DNA of 33,361 nucleotides from Streptomyces ipomoeae 91-03 (GTDB lineage: Bacteria; Actinomycetota; Actinomycetes; Streptomycetales; Streptomycetaceae), in contig NZ_AEJC01000040.1 of assembly GCF_000317595.1 (NCBI RefSeq), positions 1-33,361 on the forward strand, written 5' to 3'. The notes under the pieces were generated by a model, which worked only from the letters and a program-made list of their open reading frames with translations, was not told the origin of the DNA and searched no databases. Below are positions 4,264 to 22,097 of this stretch, piece after piece (the stretch's first letter is position 1; each line of letters opens with the position of its first letter). The position numbers and the translations under genes were made by a program.

Positions 4264-5496
4264 ATGAGCCCCCGCACCCCCGGAGCCGAACTCCCCGAGC
4301 ACCCCGACTGGCTGTGGCGCACACCCGAGCCGAAGCGCTCGTACGACGTCATCGTCGTGGGCGGCGGCGGTCACGGCCTCGCCACCGCCCACTACCTGGC
4401 GAAGAACCACGGCATCACGAACGTGGCCGTGCTGGAGAAGGGGTGGCTGGCGGGCGGCAACATGGCCCGCAACACCACCATCATCCGCTCCAACTACCTC
4501 TGGGACGAGAGCGCGGGCATCTATGAGCACGCGCTCAAGCTGTGGGAGGGCCTGGAGGAGGAGCTGGACTACCCGATCCTGTTCTCCCAGCGTGGCGTGC
4601 TGAACCTGGCACACAGCCTCCAGGACGTCCGCGACAGCGTGCGCCGCGTCGAGGCGAACCGTCTGAACGGCGTGGACGCGGAATGGCTGGACGCCGCCCA
4701 GGTCAAAGAGGTCTGCCCGATCGTCAACATCTCACCGGAGGTGCGTTATCCGGTACTGGGCGGTACCTATCAACCCCGGGCGGGCATCGCCAAGCACGAC
4801 CACGTCGCCTGGGGCTTCGCCCGTTCCGCGGACGCCGCGGGCATCGACATCATCCAGAACTGCGAGGTCACGGGAGTGGATGTGGTCGACGGCCGGGTGG
4901 TCGGGGTCCAGACCACCCTCGGCCCGATGGCGGCGGGCAAGGTGGCCCTGTGCTCGGCGGGCCACACCTCGGTCCTCGCCGCCATGGCGGGCATCGAACT
5001 CCCGCTCCAGAGCCACCCGTTGCAGGCGCTGGTGTCGGAGTTGCTGGAGCCGGTGCACCCGACCGTCGTCATGTCCAACGCGGTCCATGTGTACGTCAGC
5101 CAGGCGCACAAGGGCGAGTTGGTGATGGGCGCGGGCATCGACGCGTACAACTCGTACACCCAGCGCGGGGCCTTCCACATCATCGAGCAACAGATGTCGG
5201 CGGCCCTGGAACTCTTCCCGGTCTTCGCCCGCGCGCATGTGCTGCGCACCTGGGGCGGCATCGTCGACGTCAGCCCCGACGCCTCACCGATCATCGGCCT
5301 GACCCCGGTCGACAACCTCTACCTCAACTGCGGCTGGGGCACGGGCGGTTTCAAGGCCACGCCCGGGGTGGGCTGGGTGTACGCCCACACCATCGCGCAC
5401 AACGCACCGCATCCGCTGAACGCCCCGTTCACGCTCGACCGTTTCACCACCGGCGCGCTCGTCGACGAGCACGGCGCGGCCGCGGTGGCCCACTAG
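4264..5496 (+). CDS. soxB: Heterotetrameric sarcosine oxidase, beta subunit
   Basis: SoxB carries the FAD site where sarcosine is oxidised to glycine, and with SoxA it holds the covalently bound FMN. The 410-residue protein is normal for SoxB. It has a [19 protein letters not shown] dinucleotide-binding motif (about residues 28-46). The [13 protein letters not shown] segment contains His178, which by family alignment is the likely covalent FMN attachment residue. The C-terminal [16 protein letters not shown] and [14 protein letters not shown] blocks are typical of the DAO/SoxB fold. The ATG follows ACGGAGA by 6 bases. It lies 49 bp after folD and 20 bp before soxD, in the usual soxB-D-A-G order. 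Confidence 0.96.
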
Positions 5497-5516
5497 GACC
5501 ACTAGGGAGCCGACCC

Positions 5517-8500
5517 ATGCTGCTCATCCCCTGCCCGTGGTGCGGGCCCCGCGACGAGGCCGAGTTCCACTACGGCGGCCAGGCCCACGTGCCCTACCCC
5601 GAGAACCCGTCCACCCTCACCGACGTGGAATGGGCCCGCTACCTCTTCTTCCGCGACAACCCCAAGGGCCCCTTCGCCGAACGCTGGAGCCACGCGGCGG
5701 GCTGCCGCCGCTGGTTCAACGCGATACGGGACACGTCGACGAACGAGGTGTTGGCGGTGTACCGGGCAGGGGAGGAGCGCCCGGTGGCCGTTGAGTCGAG
5801 GCCGGTGTTCTCAGCGGGGTCCGGGGAGGCAGCCCCAGAAGGGGCGCGTGGCGGTGCAGGGGGCGAAGCCCCCGCCGAAGTCGAAGGCGCGGAGCCCCTG
5901 GAGGACGGGACGGGCAGGGGCGGCGGGGGCACATCCCAACCGTTCCGCCACCCCACCCGAGGCCGAATCCACCGCGACGAACCCCTCACCTTCGTCTTCG
6001 ACGGCACGGAATACCAGGGCTACCGGGGTGACACCCTCGCGTCGGCCCTCTTGGCGAACGGCGTCATCCGATCCGGCACCAGCATCAAACTCGGCCGCCC
6101 CCGGGGCATCTTCTCGGCCGGCGTCGAGGAACCCAACGCGGTCATCCAGATCGAGGCCCCGTTCCCCGAGCCGATGCTCCCGGCGACCACGGTCGAGCTC
6201 TACGACGGCCTCGTCGCCGGCAGCCTCCCCGGCCAGGGCCGCCTCGCCACGGAACCGGACCCCGCCCGCTACGACGCCGTACACGCCCACTGCGACCTGC
6301 TGATCGTCGGCGCGGGCCCGGCGGGCCTCGCGGCCGCATCGGCGGCAGCGAGAAGCGGCGCCCGCGTCATCCTCGCCGACGACCGACCCGAACCGGGCGG
6401 CAGCCTCCTGGACACGGCCGAACACCTCGACTGGCTGGCGCAGACCACCGCACAGCTCGACACCGCCCCCGAGGTCCGCGTCCTGCGCCGCACCACCGTC
6501 TTCGGCTACTACGACGACAACCACCTCCTCGCCGTGGAACGCCGCACCAACCACCTCGGCGCCCACGCCCCCGAGAAGGTCTCGCGCGAACGCGTCTGGC
6601 GCATCCGCGCCCGCCGCGTCGTCCTGGCCACCGGCGCCCACGAACGCTCGCTCGCCTTCGCGGACAACGACCGCCCCGGAGTGATGCTCGCCGCCTCGGC
6701 CCGCACGTACGTCAACCGCCACGGCGTCCTCCCGGGCCGCCACGCGGTGGTCTTCACCACCAACGACAGCGCCTACGCCGCTGCCCTGGACCTGCACTCG
6801 GCCGGGGTACAGGTCGCGGCGATCGTCGACACCCGCCCCGACCCGGGGGAGTGGGCGGAACACGCCAGGGCGGCCGGCATCGAGGTGCTGCCCGCTCACG
6901 CCGTCACCGCCACGGAGGGCGACGCCCGCCTCACCGCCGTGACCGTCGCCCCGTACGGAGAGTCCGCGGGACAGCGGGAGTTCGCCGCCGACCTGCTGCT
7001 GGTCTCCGGCGGCTGGAACCCGGCGGCACACCTGTTCAGCCAGGCGGGCGGCAAACTGCGCCACGACGAGGCGCTCGGCTCGTTCGTCCCCGACACCTGC
7101 CGCCAGGCGGTCGAGGTCGTGGGCAGCGCGAACGGCGTCCTCGACCCGGCCGCGGTCCTGGCGCAGGGCGCCGCCGCCGGAGCCCGAGCCGTGGAGGCGG
7201 AGGGCTACACCCCGGAGGCACCCCGCCTCCCGGCGATCGCCGCCCAGCCGCGGCCGACGCCCCCGATGCACGTGTACGCCGTCCCCGGCGCTCCGGACGC
7301 CCCCCGTTTCGTCGACCTGCAACGGGACGTCACCGTCGACGACCTGGCCCGGGCCACCGGCGCCGGCATGCGCTCGGTCGAGCACACCAAGCGCTACACC
7401 ACCGCCGGTACGGCCAACGACCAGGGCAAGACCTCCGGTGTCCTGGCCGGCGGCGTCGTCGCCGAACTCCTCGGCGTGGACATCTCCGCCCTCGGCACGA
7501 CCACCTTCCGTCCCCCGTACACCCCCGTCTCCTTCGCCACGCTCGCCGGCCGTGACCGGGGCGCGCTGCACGACCCGATCCGCACGACCGCCCTGCACTC
7601 ATGGCACGTCGAGCACGGCGCCCTGTTCGAGAACGTCGGCCAGTGGCAGCGCCCCTGGTACTACCCGCGGGACGGCGAGGACATGGAGAGCGCCGTACTG
7701 CGCGAATGCCGGGCGGCCCGCGAGAGCGTGGCCTTCATGGACGCCTCCACCCTCGGCAAGATCGACGTACAGGGCCCGGACGCGGCCGTCTTCCTCGACC
7801 GGCTCTACACCAACATGATGAGCACCCTGAAGGTCGGCATGATCCGCTACGGCGTGATGTGCCGCCTGGACGGCATGGTCTTCGACGACGGCACGGTCAT
7901 CCGCCTCGCCCAGGACCGCTTCCTGGTCACCACCACGACGGGCAACGCGGCCACGGTCCTGGACTGGATGGAGGAGTGGCTGCAGACGGAGTGGCCGGAG
8001 CTGAAGGTCCACTGCACGTCGGTGACGGAGCAGTGGGCCACCGTCGCCCTGGTGGGCCCGCGCTCACGTGCCGTCCTCGGCGCTCTCGCACCCCGACTGG
8101 CCGTGGAGAACGACGACTTCCCCTTCATGGCCTGGCGGGAGACCACGGTCGCGGGCATCGAGGCGCGCGTGTGCCGGATCAGCTTCTCCGGTGAACTGGC
8201 CTACGAGATCAACGTCTCCCCGTGGCAGGCCCGCGCCCTGTGGGAGGCGCTGTACGAGGCCGGGGCCCCGTACGGCATCACCCCGTACGGCACGGAGACC
8301 ATGCACGTCCTGCGCGCGGAGAAGGGCTATCCCATCATCGGCCAGGACACCGACGGCACCGTCACCCCCCAGGACCTCGGCATGAACTGGGTGGTGTCGA
8401 AGAAGAAGCCCGACTTCATCGGCAAGCGCTCCTTCGCCCGCGCCGACACCGCCCGCCCCGACCGCAAACACCTGGTGGGCCTGCTCCCGGACGACCCCGG

Positions 8501-15109: not shown

Positions 15110-16047
15110 CCACCACCACCGAGAGACTGCTCGGGGATCTGCGCCAAGCCCTGCGCGACGGCGGGCTCCACGGCTCGTTCCTCGTCCGGGACCTGGAGAC
15201 CGGTGACGAGATCGGCATCGACCCCGACATCGAGTTACCCGTCGCGTCCCTCGTGAAGATCCCGCTCGCCCTGGTGACGCTGGAACGCATCCGGCGCGGG
15301 GAACTCGACGGCGCCACGATGATCGAGGTGCCGCCGGGGCGGATCACCACCCCCGGTCCGACCGGTCTGAGCCGGTTCCGTCACGCCGCCCATATCGCCG
15401 TGGAGGACCTGCTCTACCTCAGCACCTGCATCAGCGACAACAGCGCCGCCGACGCCCTCTTCGAACTCACGCCGCCCGCCCGGGTCGCGGCGGCCCTGCA
15501 CGAGTTCGGGCTGCGCGGCATCGCCGTACGGCACACCATGCGCGAGCTCGCCGAAACACCGGTGGAGCGTTTCGACCCGGCGGACGTGCACCTCGCGCAC
15601 GCCCTCGCGATCGACGCCGGCACGCCTGGGCGCGGCCACCGGGTGCCGCAACTCGACATCTCGCGTGCCAACATCGGGACGGCACGGGCCTTCGTCGACC
15701 TCCTCCAGGCCCTCTGGCGGTCACAGCACGGAACCATGGGCGCCGAGTCCTCGCCGATCCACCCCGATGTCGCGGCACGGGTACGCGACCTCATGGCCAA
15801 CAACCTCGTGCGCAACCGCCTCGCCCCGGACTTCGACTCCGACGCCTCCACCTGGTCGTCCAAGACCGGCATGCTGCTCAACCTGCGCCATGAGGCCGGC
15901 GTGGTCGAACACGCCGACGGCCGGACCTATGCGATAGCCGTCCTGACCGAGTCCCGCGTGGCCGCCGGCCGACAGCCCGGCGCCGACGCCCTCATGGGCC
16001 AGGTCGCCCGGCGACTGCGCGACGAACTCCGTTCGAGATGGATCTAG
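15106..16047 (+). CDS. blaB: BlaB-like cytoplasmic serine penicillin-recognising protein
   Basis: In S. cacaoi, BlaB together with BlaA is needed for beta-lactamase induction. It resembles a penicillin-recognising enzyme but lacks a signal peptide. The same holds here: 313 residues, no N-terminal hydrophobic segment, and the full set of serine-enzyme motifs (Ser48-Leu-Val-Lys51, Ser110-Asp-Asn, Lys253-Thr-Gly). It may sense a beta-lactam or a cell-wall signal in the cytoplasm, or act as an enzyme; this is inference from the family. The GTG start overlaps the blaA stop. Codon 44, just before the catalytic Ser, is TTA (15235-15237), so it too should be bldA-dependent. Confidence 0.9.
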   Translation: MTTTTERLLGDLRQALRDGGLHGSFLVRDLETGDEIGIDPDIELPVASLVKIPLALVTLERIRRGELDGATMIEVPPGRITTPGPTGLSRFRHAAHIAVEDLLYLSTCISDNSAADALFELTPPARVAAALHEFGLRGIAVRHTMRELAETPVERFDPADVHLAHALAIDAGTPGRGHRVPQLDISRANIGTARAFVDLLQALWRSQHGTMGAESSPIHPDVAARVRDLMANNLVRNRLAPDFDSDASTWSSKTGMLLNLRHEAGVVEHADGRTYAIAVLTESRVAAGRQPGADALMGQVARRLRDELRSRWI

Positions 16048-16363
16048 AGCCCGTCTGACGGATCACCTTCCGGATTATTTTCCGGATTATTTTCCGTATC
16101 GGCTCCGGATCGGCTCCGCGTCTGCGCCTGGTGGGCCGGCACCGCAGTCCGGGAACAGGGTTCGCGCCGGCCGAAAAACATCGGTCGGAGACCTGTGCCG
16201 CTGAATTTCGGTCATCTTCCCCGTTCGGGCGCGCGATAACAAGATCGCCCAAAACGTGCAAGTGTGCGAGTCGCTTGTACCTGGCATGCACTTCGCGAAT
16301 GCTCGGATCTGTTCGAACCTGGCGCCGTCCACGGTGCCGGGTGGGGCGGACCAAGGAGGGCAT
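16048..16363. other. 316-bp intergenic region ahead of the peptide cluster
   Basis: Apart from the 12-bp tandem repeat at 16068-16096, no gene is supported. It is the only sizeable spacer before the rightward hydroxylase-precursor-P450-methyltransferase run, so the cluster promoter most likely lies here. I see no convincing -35/-10 pair. Confidence 0.5.
16068..16096. repeat. 12-bp tandem repeat (2.4 copies)
   Basis: TTCCGGATTATT occurs at 16068-16079 and 16080-16091, followed by a partial TTCCG. It is an AT-rich island in a high-GC context, just after blaB and about 270 bases before the hydroxylase gene. It could be a regulator-binding array or a slippage product. Confidence 0.7.
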
Positions 16364-17353
16364 GTGTCACCGGCGCTGGACGCCATCAGTGATCTTCCTG
16401 AAGCGGCACCTCTGCGGCAAACCTTCGATCCCGATCTCTTACAGAGGGACCTCGACGCGCTGGGCGACCGCACATGGGGTGCTCAGCGAACGGTCGTGGA
16501 CGGGGGAGACCTGACGGAACCGGCGGAGATCGACTGGCGGTGCCTGGCTCTCCGCGGTCCGGCGGGCGACCCGGACCGAACCGACCCGGGAGGGCCGGGA
16601 ACCGACGGGTTCGCGGACACTCCGTGGCTGAAGCGCACACCGTACATGGCCGAGGTGCTCGCCTCCCTGCCGACTTCCCTGCGCTGTGCCCGGTTGATGT
16701 CGCTGGCCCCCGGAGTCGAAGTCCCGGAGCACCGGGACACGCCGACAGGGTTCCTCTACGGTTTCGTACGGCTGCACGTCCCGATCCGTACCAACCCGGG
16801 CGCCGTGCTCCGCATCGACGGCAAGGAGCACCGCTGGCAGCCGGGCCGCCTGTGGTACGGCGACTTCAGCCGACCGCACAGTGTCGTGAACACCGGCAGC
16901 CGGCCGCGCGTCCACCTCGTCGTCGACTGCGTCATCACGCCTGAGCTGCTGGATCTGTTTCCCGAGGACTTCCTGCGGCGCGTTCCCATGAGCGACGTGG
17001 CGTTCTCGCGCCCCGAGATCCCCCTGCGCCCGTTCGAGCTGGCCGATTTCGAATGCGTACTGACCGTCCCGCCTTCCTTCCTGCGACTGGACGAGCCGGT
17101 CGCCGAACACGAAGAACGGGACCTGGACGCACGGGTGGTGGCCAAGCAGGGACACCTGGTCCTGGACATCGCCGATGGGCCCACCTTCGGGCTGATCCAT
17201 GTGGGCGGCGGCGAGTTCCGCCTCCAGGGCTGGATCGAGGAACGAGGCATGCACCTGGGACTTTCCAGCAGTGCCCCGCGTGCCGTGTTCTTCTCGCGCC
17301 GTGGACGCCACCACCAGAGCGTCGAGCGCCCGGCCCGGCCGGCGTGCGCGTGA
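16364..17353 (+). CDS. Aspartyl/asparaginyl beta-hydroxylase-family (Fe/2-oxoglutarate) enzyme
   Basis: This protein of 329 residues contains the Asp/Asn beta-hydroxylase cupin core, a family that also includes free-proline cis-hydroxylases. The key residues are His123 in PEHRDTP (with Asp125 as a possible third iron ligand), His172 in FSRPHSVVN, and Arg182 in SRPRVHLVVD for 2-oxoglutarate. The C-terminal 120 residues form an extra domain that I do not recognise. The GTG start follows AAGGAGG closely. Codon 26 is TTA (16439-16441), suggesting bldA-dependent expression. It lies 139 bp upstream of the first pentapeptide gene in the same direction, so peptide hydroxylation (for example at Leu or His) is plausible but unproven. 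Hydroxylation of a free amino acid is the alternative. Confidence 0.85.
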   Translation: MSPALDAISDLPEAAPLRQTFDPDLLQRDLDALGDRTWGAQRTVVDGGDLTEPAEIDWRCLALRGPAGDPDRTDPGGPGTDGFADTPWLKRTPYMAEVLASLPTSLRCARLMSLAPGVEVPEHRDTPTGFLYGFVRLHVPIRTNPGAVLRIDGKEHRWQPGRLWYGDFSRPHSVVNTGSRPRVHLVVDCVITPELLDLFPEDFLRRVPMSDVAFSRPEIPLRPFELADFECVLTVPPSFLRLDEPVAEHEERDLDARVVAKQGHLVLDIADGPTFGLIHVGGGEFRLQGWIEERGMHLGLSSSAPRAVFFSRRGRHHQSVERPARPACA

Positions 17354-17492
17354 TCTGACACGGAGTTCGACGGCACCACGGCCGGACACGCCCTCGGTCC
17401 ACACCACTTCCCGAGCCCGCGGGGCGTTTCCCGCCGCATGGCTGGACGCGGCCCGCGTCCGCACCCACAACCCGGCATCGAGGAGGTGCGTC

Positions 17493-17510
17493 ATGCGCTA
17501 CCTGCACTGA
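17493..17510 (+). CDS. bytA: 18-bp gene for pentapeptide MRYLH (biarylitide-type RiPP precursor, copy 1)
   Basis: ATGCGCTACCTGCACTGA encodes Met-Arg-Tyr-Leu-His and a stop. AGGAGG at 17481-17486 sits 6 bases before the ATG, an ideal Shine-Dalgarno. In biarylitides an MRYxH pentapeptide of this size is the whole precursor. A cytochrome P450 joins the Tyr3 ring to His5, and Met-Arg is removed to leave a cyclic tripeptide. Here the product would be a Tyr-Leu-His macrocycle. The assignment rests on the exact pattern, the strong ribosome site, a second identical copy, and the P450 that follows. An attenuator peptide is a possible but weaker alternative. Confidence 0.85.
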   Translation: MRYLH

Positions 17511-17553
17511 TCTCCGGAGCGCCCAAGTCCCGTCCGCCACTTGAGGAGGAACC

Positions 17554-17571
17554 ATGCGCTACCTGCACTGA
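17554..17571 (+). CDS. bytA: 18-bp gene for pentapeptide MRYLH (precursor, copy 2)
   Basis: This is a second gene, identical base for base to the copy 61 bases upstream, again with its own Shine-Dalgarno (AGGAGG at 17544-17549, 4 bases before the ATG). Identity covers the coding part and a few following bases (TGATC), whereas the flanks differ. This suggests selection on the peptide or a duplication whose spacer has diverged. Two copies would double precursor dose relative to the P450 gene 126 bp downstream. Confidence 0.85.
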   Translation: MRYLH

Positions 17572-17630
17572 TCCGGAACAGGGCGGCGGGTGACCGGGCG
17601 GAAGCCCCGCGGGTCATCCGTTGTCCCAGG

Positions 17631-17655
17631 GCGGCGGCCCGGTTCGGGCCGCCGC
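17631..17655. terminator. Strong hairpin between precursor genes and P450 (attenuator/processing site)
   Basis: GCGGCGGCCC at 17631-17640 pairs perfectly with GGGCCGCCGC at 17646-17655 around GGTTC; one more G-C pair closes inside, leaving a 3-base loop. There is no T-run after it. Its place between the tiny genes and the enzyme genes suggests partial termination or protection of the upstream mRNA 3' end, giving more precursor than enzyme. Confidence 0.6.
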
Positions 17656-17697
17656 AGCCTATCCCACCCGTACCACCGATACGCGGAAGGACCGAGG

Positions 17698-18852
17698 ATG
17701 GACCTGTTCCGGCCGCTGGACGACACGACCATCAGCGACCCGCAGCCGATGTACCACCGTCTCCGCTCGACCGAACCGGTCCACTGGTACGAGCCGTTGA
17801 GCGCCTGGGTGGTCAGCGGTTACGACGACTGCCTGTTCGCCCTGCACCGCACCGACCTCTTCTCCTCCGACTGGCGGCGAGCCGGTGCCGAGATCCCGGA
17901 CAACCTGCTCAGCATCCAGACCCTCGACCCGCCGGAGCACGGTGCCGTGCACCGCGTGCTGATGGATGCCTACCGGCGCCAGGACTTCGCCGCCATCAGA
18001 ACGAAGCTGGAGGACCTGGCGGACGAACTCCTCGGGAAGCTGTCCGCCGAGCCGTCCTTCGACCTGGTCGAGTCCTTCACCGCCCCGCTGTCCTTCGCGG
18101 CGGTGGCCGCGCTGTTCGGAGTCCCCGACGCCGACGAGAAGAACATCGTCGCCTGGTCCGAGGCGATCGTCGCGGCCATGGACTCCGGCCTCACCCCGGA
18201 GGCCGCCGCCCCCGGAACGCGGGCCCGCGACCAGCTCAGCGCGGAGATCTCACGCTGGCTCGACAGCGACCCGGACAGCGGCCTGCTCGCGGATCTACGG
18301 AGAGCCGAAGCCGCGCGGAGCATCTCGCGCGACATGATCCTCAACACCCTGCGTGCCATGCTCCACGCCGGATACGCCCCCACGAGCCGGTTCATCGCGG
18401 CTTCCGTACTGGCGTTGCTGCGTACACCCGCGGCGTGGAAGGAACTCCAGACCACCGGCGTGACCGAGAGCGTGCTCAAGGAACTGCTGCGCCACTCCGG
18501 GCCCGTACAGGCCGTCGCCCGCGTATGCGCTCAGGATGTGGAGCTGGGAGGCCGTGTCCTCCGTAAGGGAAGCGACGTCATCCTGCTGATCGCTGCCGCC
18601 AACCGTGACCCCCGCCAGTTTCCCCGACCCGACGAACTGGACTTCACCCGCACGCCGAACCACAGCCTGGCGTTCGGCTGGGGCGCGCACGCATGTGCGG
18701 GTGCGTCACTGGCCCGTTTGACGTGCGCCGTCGCACTGGGCGCCCTCCTCCGGCACACCCCGCAGTTGAGGCCGGCCGGAGAGCCGGTCCACTGGCGTCA
18801 CGCCACCCTGCGCGGCCTCCGCACGCTGCCGGTGAGCGGGGGCGCCGCGTGA
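17698..18852 (+). CDS. bytO: Cytochrome P450, predicted peptide-crosslinking enzyme (biarylitide type)
   Basis: This soluble P450 of 384 residues is predicted to oxidatively couple Tyr3 and His5 of the MRYLH peptides. It has a C-helix DPPEHGAVHRVL, the ExxR pair Glu262-Arg265 (KELLR), and the heme loop FGWGAHACAG with Cys333 as thiolate ligand. The I-helix is odd: where most P450s have A/G-Gx-D/E-T, it reads AGYAPTS (224-230), lacking the acid-alcohol pair used for oxygen activation in hydroxylases. This would fit radical coupling rather than oxygen insertion. The ATG at 17698 follows GGAAGGA; longer in-frame versions lack a ribosome site. The stop overlaps the methyltransferase start (GTGA). 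No ferredoxin gene is nearby, so electron partners must come from elsewhere. Confidence 0.95.
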   Translation: MDLFRPLDDTTISDPQPMYHRLRSTEPVHWYEPLSAWVVSGYDDCLFALHRTDLFSSDWRRAGAEIPDNLLSIQTLDPPEHGAVHRVLMDAYRRQDFAAIRTKLEDLADELLGKLSAEPSFDLVESFTAPLSFAAVAALFGVPDADEKNIVAWSEAIVAAMDSGLTPEAAAPGTRARDQLSAEISRWLDSDPDSGLLADLRRAEAARSISRDMILNTLRAMLHAGYAPTSRFIAASVLALLRTPAAWKELQTTGVTESVLKELLRHSGPVQAVARVCAQDVELGGRVLRKGSDVILLIAAANRDPRQFPRPDELDFTRTPNHSLAFGWGAHACAGASLARLTCAVALGALLRHTPQLRPAGEPVHWRHATLRGLRTLPVSGGAA

Positions 18853-19535
18853 GCCCTCTCGGGACCGGTACCTCCTCCGACGGCGGCCCGGTGGCACCGG
18901 ACGGCAGCCCGGTCGGCCTGTACCGCTCGTTCCCTCCGGGCCGGGAACCGGCGCTCATCCACGGAGCCGTTCCCCCGGGGGCCGCCGTACTCGAACTCGG
19001 CTGTGGCGCAGGCAGGATCACCCACGCGCTCGTGGACCTCGGGCATCCCGTGGTCGCGGTCGACCAGAGCGCCGACATGCTCGCCTGCGTACAGGGCGCC
19101 ACCCGGGTCCACGCGGACATCGAGGAACTCGACCTGGCGCGGGAGTTCCCCGCCGTGGTCCTCGCCAGCTTCTTGATCAACACCATCGTCCCCGGGCAGC
19201 GGGAAGCCTTCCTCGCCACCTGCGCACGGCACGTCACGGACGACGGTGTCGTACTCGTCCAGCGGACCTCCCCGGACTGGGCCGCGTCACTGCGGCCCGG
19301 CCGGGAACACCGGTCCGGCGAGTTCCTGATCACCATCACGGAGGCCCGGCTGGAGGGCGGCGTCCTGCACGCGGCGCAGGAGTGCAGGCGCGGGGAAACG
19401 GTGTGGACACACTCGTGGACCGATGTCGTGCACTCCGACGAGGACATGGAGAAACTGGCCGCTTCCGCCGGGCTTCCCCTGGACCGGTGGCTCGACGAGG
19501 AACGGGAGTGGGCCTTGCTCCGCCCCGCCCGATAG
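18849..19535 (+). CDS. Class I SAM-dependent methyltransferase
   Basis: The product has 228 residues and a Rossmann methyltransferase fold. Motif I is VLELGCGAGRITHALVDLG (from about residue 47), followed by an acidic strand end in VVAVDQSADML, with the motif IV/V region around AVVLASFLINTIV. The GTG start overlaps the P450 stop, so the pair is translationally coupled and almost certainly acts on the same pathway. The likely role is N-methylation of the crosslinked tripeptide's free amine, or methylation of a side chain; the exact target cannot be read from sequence. It converges with the transporter gene 119 bp downstream. Confidence 0.92.
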   Translation: MSPLGTGTSSDGGPVAPDGSPVGLYRSFPPGREPALIHGAVPPGAAVLELGCGAGRITHALVDLGHPVVAVDQSADMLACVQGATRVHADIEELDLAREFPAVVLASFLINTIVPGQREAFLATCARHVTDDGVVLVQRTSPDWAASLRPGREHRSGEFLITITEARLEGGVLHAAQECRRGETVWTHSWTDVVHSDEDMEKLAASAGLPLDRWLDEEREWALLRPAR

Positions 19536-19589
19536 GGGATCGCCCGAGTCACCGGTGGATCACGGCACTGCTGGATCACGTCACGGTCG

Positions 19590-19651
19590 GGTCACCTCAC
19601 CGCCGGCTCATGCCACGGCCGGTCACCTCACTGCCGACTCATGCCACGGCC
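19590..19651. repeat. 31-bp direct tandem repeat (2 copies)
   Basis: Units at 19590-19620 and 19621-19651 begin GGTCACCTCAC and end CTCATGCCACGGCC, with two mismatches between them. A partial third unit (GGATCAC) runs into the stop codon of the leftward transporter gene. Similar GGATCAC/GGTCAC words precede the first unit. It lies between two convergent genes and may act in mRNA ending or be a replication-slippage product. Confidence 0.75.
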
Positions 19652-19654
19652 GGA

Positions 19655-20959
19655 TCACGAAGGCGACTGCTCGGCGTCGGGCGCGTCCGGGCCGCCCGCG
19701 TCGAGCCGACCGGCGCGGCCACGCGGCGAGAGGCGTGCGCCGCACACCGCGATACTCACCAGTCCCAGGACTCCGGCCACCGTGACCACGAGGTGGGCGG
19801 GCAGGAACTCGGCCGCCGCGCCGGCCGCGGCGAAACCGACGCCCTGACCGATCATCAGCCCGGCCATGGTGATCGTGAGTGCCCTGCCCCGCAACTCCTC
19901 GGGTGTGGCGTCGAGCACGCGCTGGTCCAGCCCCATCGCGTAGGTGAATCCGCATCCGCACACCAGCAACAGAAGGGTCGCCGGGACAAGGCCGGGAGCG
20001 AGGGCGAAGAACAGCAACGGCACGAACATCAAGCAGCCGAGCGGCAGCAGCAGTCTGACCCGGGTACCGGGGCGAAGGAGCGTCCCCGCCAGGAGCTCAC
20101 CGATCACCGAGCCCGCCGGCGCGGCGCCCAGCAGCAGGCCGGTCGCCGTGGAGCCACCGCCCAAGTCGTCGGCGTACGCGGCAGCCAGCGCCTCGGGCGC
20201 CACGACGAGCGTCGGCGGGAGCCAGGTGAGCAGCAGCAAGGGCCGTAGACCGGGCACGGCGAGCACCTGTCGTACACCACGCAGTGAGGAACGCGTCACC
20301 GACGAACGGTCGTGCCCCTGACGGGCCGGCAGCCGCCGGGTACCGCACTGGAGAAGCAGCGCCGCGACCCCGAACCCCGCCGACGCCAGCAGCAGCGCCT
20401 GCGTGGGCGTCAGCGCGATCAGCAGTATTCCGCCGGCCGCGAAGCCGATGATCTGAGTGCTCTGCGACACCAGCCGCAGCAGAGAGCGGCCCAGCACGTA
20501 TCCCGCTCCCGACAGCAGATCCGGCAGGCTTGCCGCGCGGGCTCCCTGGAACACCGGTGCGACGGTCCCCAGGAGCAACAGCAGGAGGAGGAGAACGGGG
20601 ATCGGGGCCGATGGGATGGCCATGAGGCCGACGACCACACAGCTGACGACCTGGCAGACCACGAGCACATCACGGCTGGGGTACCGATCGGCGACCGAGG
20701 ACAGGAGCGTGGCGCCGAACAGATAGGGGGCGAAGCCCAGGGCGAAGGTCAGGGACGACAGCAGGGGAGACTTCGTCCGCTCGTACACCACCACCGAGAG
20801 CGTGATCTGGGCGGTCGCGTTGCCCAGCGTGGCGACGATCTGCGCGAGGAACATCACGCGGAACTCGGGGACGGCCAGGATCGCCCGGTAGGTGGGGGAC
20901 CCCGCGGTTCCCTGAGGACCCGTGGCGGGAGGAGACGAGGGCGAACTCTGCTGTGACAT
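19655..20959 (-). CDS. MFS transporter, probable exporter
   Basis: This major-facilitator protein of 434 residues has about 12 hydrophobic segments, in the cytoplasmic membrane. It begins with a Ser/Pro-rich tail, then TYRAILAVPEFRVMFLAQIVATLGNATAQ, and has the loop 2-3 motif SVADRYPSRDVLV. This is the MFS_1/MFS_3 pattern of drug and siderophore exporters. The ATG at 20959 is preferred; an in-frame ATG at 20971 is possible. It is divergent from an ArsR-type regulator, a common exporter-regulator pair, and convergent with the methyltransferase. Export of the modified peptide is an attractive inference but not proven; a general drug exporter is equally possible. Confidence 0.9.
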   Translation of the reverse strand: MSQQSSPSSPPATGPQGTAGSPTYRAILAVPEFRVMFLAQIVATLGNATAQITLSVVVYERTKSPLLSSLTFALGFAPYLFGATLLSSVADRYPSRDVLVVCQVVSCVVVGLMAIPSAPIPVLLLLLLLLGTVAPVFQGARAASLPDLLSGAGYVLGRSLLRLVSQSTQIIGFAAGGILLIALTPTQALLLASAGFGVAALLLQCGTRRLPARQGHDRSSVTRSSLRGVRQVLAVPGLRPLLLLTWLPPTLVVAPEALAAAYADDLGGGSTATGLLLGAAPAGSVIGELLAGTLLRPGTRVRLLLPLGCLMFVPLLFFALAPGLVPATLLLLVCGCGFTYAMGLDQRVLDATPEELRGRALTITMAGLMIGQGVGFAAAGAAAEFLPAHLVVTVAGVLGLVSIAVCGARLSPRGRAGRLDAGGPDAPDAEQSPS

Positions 20960-20999
20960 GGGCCGCAGCATCCAGGCCGGGGAGCCACGACTCAATCGA

Positions 21000-21015
21000 T
21001 TCGGAAATACTCGAA
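21000..21015. promoter_or_regulatory. Inverted repeat in the exporter-regulator divergent region
   Basis: TTCG-N8-CGAA lies in the 97-bp gap between the divergent transporter and ArsR genes, in a locally AT-rich stretch that also has ATCGAT at 20995-21000. It is the natural candidate site for the adjacent regulator to control both genes. Confidence 0.45.
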
Positions 21016-21056
21016 ACCACCGGGGAGCAGTCAGGCGGAGGGGACCGGAGGTACGC

Positions 21057-22097
21057 GTGGCGGTGCACCTGCTGCTGGAGACCGAGGACCTGCTCCGGTG
21101 CCGCTTCGCGCTCTCGCCCCTGTGGGAGACCGTGGCCGCGGTCCGCACCCTGGCCGACCCACGACGTCAGGCGTACCACCTGCCCTGGATACGGCAGGTA
21201 CGCCCGCTCGTCGACGACGCCACGCTGGCTCCGCTGCTCGCCCTGCTGCCACGTACGGGATACACGCCCGACTTCCTCACCCCACCGCCCTCCGGCCCCA
21301 TGGCGACCTTCGACGACGAGCTGGAGCAGGTGACCACCACGCCCGTCGCCCAGGTGGAGGCGGAACTCCACCGATGCCTCCACGGGCCCGAACGCGGTTC
21401 CCCGCCGGACCCGGAACTCGCCGCCCGCCTGCTCAGGGAGCCCGCGAGCACCGTCGCCGAACTCAGCAGGCTGATCCGCCTGTGCTGGGACCGCCTGGTG
21501 GCCCCGCAGTGGGCACAGCTGCGCGATCTCCTGCACGCCGACATCGCGTCACGTTCCCAACAGATCGCCGCCGGCGGCTTCCAGCACATGCTCGGGGAAC
21601 TGCACGGCTCCATACGGTGGCACGAGGACCGCCGACTGGTGATCGCGACGCCCCATCGCATCACCCAGCGCCTCAACGGCCGAGGCCTGCTCCTCCTGCC
21701 GAGCGCGTTCGTCTGGCCGGCCCTCACCGTCGTGGCGGAGGAGCCGTGGCAGCCCACGGTCATCTACCCCGCCCGCGGGATCGGCGACCTGTGGCGCTCC
21801 ACCGCACACACACGCGGTACGCACGCACTGGAGTGCCTCATCGGCCGCACCCGGGCCCGCATCCTCAGCGACCTCCACGAGCCCACACCGACCAGCACTC
21901 TCGCCCGCATGCACGGCATGAGCCCTTCCACTGTCTCCGGCCACATCTCCACGCTGCGTCAGGCGGGCCTGGTGACGAGCTACCGCGTAGGCCGCTTCAC
22001 CTACCACGAGCGAACCGCTCTCGGCATCGCCCTGTCCGGCACGTCCGGGAGCGGGAAAGCGACGCATGGCCTTACGGACACGCGGCCGGGGGAGTGA
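21057..22097 (+). CDS. ArsR/winged-helix transcriptional regulator with N-terminal ligand domain
   Basis: This predicted DNA-binding repressor has 346 residues. The C-terminal part (about 265-330) is a clear winged helix: ARILSDLHEPTPTSTLARMH, then recognition helix SPSTVSGHISTLRQAGLV and the wing TSYRVGRFTYHE. The N-terminal 250 residues match the long ligand-binding-like domain found in many Streptomyces ArsR relatives (DUF5937 type). The GTG start is set by GGAGG 5 bases upstream. No cysteine metal-binding set is evident in the winged helix, so a small organic ligand is more likely than a metal. It is divergent from the MFS gene and probably controls it. Confidence 0.86.
   Translation: MAVHLLLETEDLLRCRFALSPLWETVAAVRTLADPRRQAYHLPWIRQVRPLVDDATLAPLLALLPRTGYTPDFLTPPPSGPMATFDDELEQVTTTPVAQVEAELHRCLHGPERGSPPDPELAARLLREPASTVAELSRLIRLCWDRLVAPQWAQLRDLLHADIASRSQQIAAGGFQHMLGELHGSIRWHEDRRLVIATPHRITQRLNGRGLLLLPSAFVWPALTVVAEEPWQPTVIYPARGIGDLWRSTAHTRGTHALECLIGRTRARILSDLHEPTPTSTLARMHGMSPSTVSGHISTLRQAGLVTSYRVGRFTYHERTALGIALSGTSGSGKATHGLTDTRPGE

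Follow-up and report, generated by a model that had tools for sequence, protein, structure and literature searches.

A 33,361-nt window of Streptomyces ipomoeae 91-03 (contig NZ_AEJC01000040.1, positions 1 to 33,361) contains two 18-bp genes that encode the pentapeptide MRYLH, followed on the same strand by a cytochrome P450 (P450) gene whose product likely crosslinks Tyr3 with His5 of that peptide, and we consider it quite probable that the locus is a biarylitide cluster. The likely product, predicted from the genes, is a C-N-bridged, N-methylated and perhaps hydroxylated Tyr-Leu-His (YLH). A first-pass annotation made from the sequence had proposed a P450, a coupled S-adenosylmethionine (SAM) methyltransferase and a hydroxylase beside the tiny genes, and each was recovered by domain search (PF00067, a class I SAM domain in a frame overlapping the P450 gene by 4 bp, and PF05118, respectively).

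The precursor genes, copy 1 (17493..17510, + strand) and copy 2 (17554..17571, +), were defined by sequence, pattern search and conservation and are identical 18-bp MRYLH frames. Each follows the Shine-Dalgarno sequence GAGGAGG, located at 17480..17486 (+), 6 nt 5' of the ATG of copy 1, and at 17543..17549 (+), 4 nt 5' of the ATG of copy 2, so the strong ribosome sites described in the first-pass annotation are indeed present. The sequence ATGMGNTAYNNNCAYTRR has two exact matches in the window and none in 100 dinucleotide shuffles; across the 10.4-Mb genome it matches twice on the forward strand and never on the reverse, both times at the precursor frames, and the same sequence read backwards, used as a whole-genome control, gave no forward and one reverse match. 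A scan of contigs from one genome per species returned 26 loci, five of them close (77-92% P450 identity): Streptomyces sp. IBSBF 2953 (L033), Sphaerimonospora thailandensis (L034), S. lichenis (L035), S. chumphonensis (L036) and Streptomyces sp. NBRC 110035 (L037). No pentapeptide gene was detected by the scan applied to the other 21 (22-31% P450 identity). All 11 precursor copies in the six lineage loci (the window and L033-L037) encode MRYLH, and the homologous loci thus keep the MRYxH frames whose loss had been named as a reason for doubt. Mean pairwise DNA identity across these loci is 97.6% in the 18-bp frames, compared with 53% in the preceding and 43% in the following 18 nt, and variation within the frames is confined to the third base of the Leu codon (8 CTG, 3 CTC). 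We conclude that the twin MRYLH frames are genuine and unlikely to have arisen by chance. With aromatic residues 3 and 5 (MxYxH/Y) and a ribosome site, the five-residue precursor has the features of a biarylitide, and the P450 ATG is 205 nt downstream of the first precursor ATG and 144 nt downstream of the second, within the 500 bp given for most biarylitide clusters in the available part of PMC13417212. Two copies occur in the window and in four of the five close relatives, and one in S. thailandensis; in that single copy the left flank is like that of copy 1, and the right flank, together with the Leu codon, like that of copy 2 of S. lichenis, the pattern expected from a deletion between the two copies.

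The P450 gene (17698..18852, +; ATG start, 384 aa) was assigned by PF00067, structure match, residue alignment and tree as the likely Tyr3-His5 crosslinker. Its phylogenetic position had been named in advance as a check. In a tree of 93 rows, built without 15 near-duplicate loci, P0001 and P0061-P0120, the window lineage (18 rows, support 99/99) is nested within an 85-row pentapeptide-P450 group that splits from eight other P450s at 100/99. Its place beside the MSYDH/MRYAY group is moderately supported (87/77), and it is separate from both the P450Blt branch and the clade that RufO forms with three similar rows (100/99). Within the 85-row group, no pentapeptide gene was found on the P450 strand within ~4 kb at L012, L015, L074 and L096; a longer stretch around L074 (L099) holds an MRYLH frame ~4 kb off on the opposite strand, and one around L096 (L155) holds no pentapeptide frame. 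Contact residues were taken from a multiple alignment of 19 lineage rows, including P0001, and are given in P450Blt numbering. Ser165 and Val169 are present in 19/19, Ala231 in 16/19 (Val in P0009, P0011 and P0012), Val287 in 18/19 (Ile in P0013), and His234, the residue found with C-N-type crosslinks, in 19/19. The nearest solved structure is P450Blt from Micromonospora sp. MW-13 (PDB 8u2m), whose native substrate is likewise MRYLH and which forms a C-N crosslink (available parts of PMC10929621 and PMC12951456); RufO scores almost as high. Elsewhere among these loci, the MRYAY loci L101, L103 and L154 have the precursor followed by two side-by-side P450 genes, and MRHAH or MRHVH pentapeptides stand after P450s in which Gln replaces His234 (L100:3926-4025, L078, L080, L083, L084 and L086), with two MRHAH copies in L100.

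The methyltransferase gene (18849..19535, +; GTG start, 228 aa) was recognised by domain search as class I SAM-dependent and shares GTGA with the P450 stop. Its computed model (predicted local distance difference test score, pLDDT, 96) matches best CypM, the cypemycin N-terminal enzyme, and its best matches are amine N-methyltransferases, a fold similarity that makes methylation of the peptide more likely. Myxarylin, the product of the bytA-bytO-bytZ cluster of Pyxidicoccus fallax (available parts of PMC8708641 and PMC12951456), offers a close parallel, with a pentapeptide bearing a YLH core, a methyltransferase and a P450 that has His at the position associated with C-N linkage. It differs in its precursor, MNYLH, and in a methyltransferase whose homologue CorZ (9sot), standing in for BytZ, matches the window enzyme weakly (24 bits, residues 42-86 only), and the portions of those papers that are available mention no hydroxylase gene. 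The 50 structure matches listed do not include CorZ (9sot/9sov), an absence that carries no meaning because the library ends in April 2026. Myxarylin is N-methylated YLH and was extracted at m/z 222.615 for [M+2H]2+ (PMC8708641, in part), in agreement with the computed [M+H]+ of 444.2241 for crosslinked YLH plus CH2. The computed [M+H]+ is 430.2085 for crosslinked YLH itself and 460.2191 with CH2 and O, and it is 472.2191 for an N-acetylated form, N-acetylation being known from earlier biarylitides; the value of 429.2 previously offered as [M+H]+ is the neutral mass, one proton off.

Upstream of the precursors lies the gene for an AspH-type Fe(II)/2-oxoglutarate (2OG) hydroxylase (16364..17353, +; GTG start, 329 aa; PF05118, 67 bits). 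Among 42 hydroxylase rows, H123, H172 and R182 are invariant and D125 is present in at least 90%; we take H123, D125 and H172 to be the HxD...H metal triad and R182 the 2OG-binding Arg. This triad and Arg sit on a jelly-roll fold, as in AspH-type Fe(II)/2OG enzymes, and the computed model (pLDDT 93) has proline hydroxylases as its best PDB matches (TMq 0.45), with AspH from rank 10. The same family occurs in 9/9 MxYDH loci (L140, L144 and L147-L153), ~2-3 kb downstream of the precursor and at 40-49% identity. These MSYDH/MFYDH clusters share the hydroxylase family and a stem after the precursor with the window, and they differ in P450 clade and precursor; in the hydroxylase tree the MxYDH rows form one group and the window lineage another, and the two are not sisters. 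Precursor motifs with Asp4 have been linked with Pgm1 ligases (PMC13417212, available part). P0140 is a 568-aa fusion of a methyltransferase domain with a hydroxylase 51% identical to that of the window; as a functional link it carries little weight, because its methyltransferase half has just 31% identity across 124 residues and is closer to other families.

A predicted RNA hairpin with a 15-bp outer stem (17581..17626, +; spacer fold z -3.1) begins 10 nt after the copy 2 stop and could act as a partial terminator or an RNA-stabilising element. A second predicted hairpin (17628..17660, +) is strong in the window, L033 and L037. A long helix occupies the same position in 6/6 lineage loci, interrupted in L033, with sequences that partly differ between the two halves of the lineage. 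In these six sequences 87.8% of the hairpin is paired, compared with 33-51% in slid versions. Two pairs are changed on both sides, a number reached by 236/500 shuffles, the covariation score was reached by 18/500 and the paired percentage by 16/500; the covariation is no more than suggestive. Searches of Rfam and for T-tail terminators gave no match at the site. The test was widened to the 70 nt that follow the precursor (its second copy at loci with two) in 23 non-duplicate loci with the precursor 92-160 nt before the P450 gene; loci in which the precursor follows the P450 (MKYWH, MRHxH) or lies at a distance (RufO type) were left out. A perfect stem of at least 11 bp was present in 20/23 loci (median 13; L033 9, L087 10 and L090 9 being shorter), including all seven MSYDH/MFYDH loci tested. 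Control gaps between co-directional genes had such a stem in 1/14, and in 4/54 (median 6) of a larger set under other limits, in a comparison in which the control is small and drawn from crude gene calls on fetched loci and the tested rows are related. In the six lineage loci, no stem exceeded 9 bp in the sequence following the hydroxylase gene or preceding copy 1. The fold z of the first 70 nt was -3 or lower in 12/23 loci versus 1/14 control gaps; that of the window is just -2.2 because the region is very G+C-rich. The predicted structure of the 90-bp bytA-bytO spacer is shown with a terminator hairpin in a legend of PMC8708641 (available part), so for one cluster the hairpin has been proposed before; in the texts of PMC13417212 and PMC12951456 the terms hairpin, stem-loop, terminator and intergenic do not occur, and none of the papers listed in one literature search names biarylitides.

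Some observations weigh against a Tyr3-His5 C-N crosslink and others against hydroxylation. The Glu238-Ser239 pair of the I-helix in P450Blt, which sits on another tree branch, is Ala-Pro in 18/19 lineage rows (Thr-Ser in P0005), Pro at 239 otherwise occurring only in P0035 among the alignment rows shown, and mutants at position 238 alter activity (PMC10929621, available part). The P450 might therefore bind MRYLH and perform other chemistry, forming a C-C or C-O link or hydroxylating the peptide. We judge this unlikely, though it deserves consideration: His234, Val169 and, in 18/19 rows, Val287 are retained, the pair is not known to be required, and loss of the acid is common in the group, with Ser at that position in MxYDH, MRYAY and MRYYH rows. 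An Ala-Pro shared with the I-helix of TxtE was suggested by pairwise BLAST and was not borne out by the multiple alignment. As for the hydroxylation step, 24 genus loci carry the hydroxylase family and 14 of them have no pentapeptide P450 nearby; the other 10 do (2 of this lineage, 7 MSYDH and 1 MRYAY), and the enzyme as a dedicated biarylitide hydroxylase was not upheld. The sav cluster of Saccharothrix variisporea (PMC13417212, available part) resembles the window as a biarylitide cluster that encodes an aspartyl/asparaginyl beta-hydroxylase (savH), and differs in its MRYVH precursor, its C-C link and an amidinotransferase replacing the methyltransferase; just a product without further modification is described there, with no hydroxylated form. 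Because the family also occurs without pentapeptide P450s and the savH cluster gave no hydroxylated product, hydroxylation stays a guess, whereas the N-methyltransferase fold strengthens the methylation of the YLH macrocycle first proposed. Two of the 14 neighbourhoods without a pentapeptide P450 hold, respectively, a major facilitator superfamily (MFS) gene, a second 2OG oxygenase and an FAA hydrolase, and an MFS gene, ACPS and a transposase.

A RufO-like pathway, in which the P450 would nitrate Tyr3 of MRYLH and the peptide would be cut up to feed a nonribosomal peptide, draws on the action of RufO of rufomycin (PDB 8SPP, 9DUJ; PMC12186263, available part) on the same MRYLH, also from an 18-bp gene, on a structure score almost equal to that of P450Blt and on a nitric oxide synthase encoded in the genome of S. 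ipomoeae. However, RufO has a nitric oxide synthase partner and Asp169, Val240 and Ala289, and the equivalents of these residues are absent from 19/19 lineage rows; RufO (9eby), P0014, P0028, L065 and L074 have Asn165, Asp169, Glu-Val and Ala289, and the RufO clade is separate. At L065 the MRYLH frame lies 1352 nt upstream of the P450, as an intervening nitric oxide synthase gene (the published rufNO order) would place it. The sole synthase match in the S. ipomoeae genome is on a different contig, C664 (~69.5-72.0 kb; L060:9517-12003), adjoining a TxtE-type 4-nitrotryptophan synthase P450 (TIGR04458, 831 bits, cut-off 500), a neighbour that accounts for it. We take that locus to be of the thaxtomin type, which would suggest a potato-scab-type Streptomyces. 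No synthase was found in the five genomes with the same cluster (genome completeness not stated), and the search matched in 2/14 control genomes. We rejected RufO-type nitration on these grounds as very improbable. Short frames followed by a strong hairpin 5' of an enzyme gene also resemble an attenuator, and the frames could then be a regulatory leader rather than a substrate. Against this, the amino acids themselves, beyond an open frame, are fixed in 11/11 copies, the peptide in related P450 groups varies with P450 type and may follow the P450 gene (MKYWH, MRHxH), and published clusters of this kind, as far as the available parts describe them, convert the peptide into product; we give the leader hardly any credence. 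The reading we prefer is that of a substrate crosslinked between Tyr3 and His5.

The genes assigned to 16364..19535 by the first-pass annotation are all there; that extent is short. DNA similarity to L033 and L037 spans 16191-16192 to 22042-22049, a reach that adds an MFS gene and a DUF5937/helix-turn-helix (HTH) regulator gene to a conserved block of 16191 to ~22050. The upstream part, 16191..16363 (~88% identity), is a likely promoter region, and no sigma-70-type match was found in 16000-20000. The MFS transporter, a likely exporter (19655..21148, -; PF07690/PF05977), is an open frame whose true start is probably further in. Divergent from it runs the regulator (20922..22097, +; PF19361, 74.5 bits; the ArsR-like HTH_20, 32.6 bits), an open frame with its true start probably at ~21050, from where substitutions cluster on one codon position of the regulator frame. 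Hydroxylase, methyltransferase and MFS genes stand in the same order in 5/5 close relatives. In L037 (same record as L098) the P450 and hydroxylase matches (6001-7151 and 4660-5626) are each split over two frames, through draft errors or decay. In a genus sample the P450 matched at E <= 1e-75 in 30/392 genomes, three of this lineage (S. ipomoeae itself, G290 and G375), and in a class sample at 1e-60 in 9/394, with S. ipomoeae the only lineage member. Among the best 120 protein-database relatives listed, 13 have 68-99% identity and the next at most 45%. A plasmid search gave no copy of this lineage, and four plasmid records held 34-38% relatives. Just 5' of the block, divergent class-A beta-lactamase-fold genes (PF13354; 13084-14526, -, and 14065-16047, +) are open frames overlapping at their starts.

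From this gene content we infer a pathway, its order and a role for the hairpin. MRYLH would be translated from both gene copies, and the P450 would bond the ring of Tyr with the imidazole of His, the bond probably being C-N. Once a protease encoded elsewhere in the genome had cut off Met-Arg, the Tyr amine so exposed would receive one or two methyl groups from the coupled methyltransferase; the hydroxylase might add OH to the macrocycle or to its precursor, and export of the product would fall to the MFS protein. Lying between copy 2 and the P450 gene, the hairpin may end many transcripts after the precursor, yielding more precursor RNA than enzyme RNA. A bolder reading, which we hold to be doubtful, is that this is a separate biarylitide lineage in which MRYLH is crosslinked without the usual I-helix acid-alcohol pair and the product is hydroxylated and N-methylated, and that across biarylitides an 18-bp gene and its own hairpin form a two-part unit releasing a tiny stable messenger, with precursor set above enzyme.

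Earlier publications already describe biarylitides, myxarylin as an N-methylated YLH, precursors in several copies and a hydroxylase gene in a biarylitide cluster. In the available part of PMC13417212, 277 biarylitide clusters are charted, with multi-copy precursors (up to six) in Lysinibacillus; the precursors are called the smallest known genes, the biological role is described as unknown and tailoring beyond the crosslink as poorly understood, and related peptides are said to have possible effects on plants. In the accessible portions of the reports, neither myxarylin nor biarylitide YVH showed antimicrobial activity. The literature search gave no account of MRYLH twins with this hydroxylase-methyltransferase pair; supplementary tables lay outside it, and some loci may be among the 277. 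Novelty seems to lie in the gene combination, in a P450 lineage that stands apart and has an altered I-helix, in the conservation of the twin genes and in how widespread the hairpin is. In this lineage a crosslinker would stand beside a candidate hydroxylase and an N-methyltransferase that differs from the proven one, and the lineage provides a natural test of the need for the acid-alcohol pair. The block also contains a likely exporter, as well as a regulator through which the cluster might be switched on, and the hairpin after the precursor may provide a second signal for finding 18-bp genes and a testable view of their expression despite their shortness.

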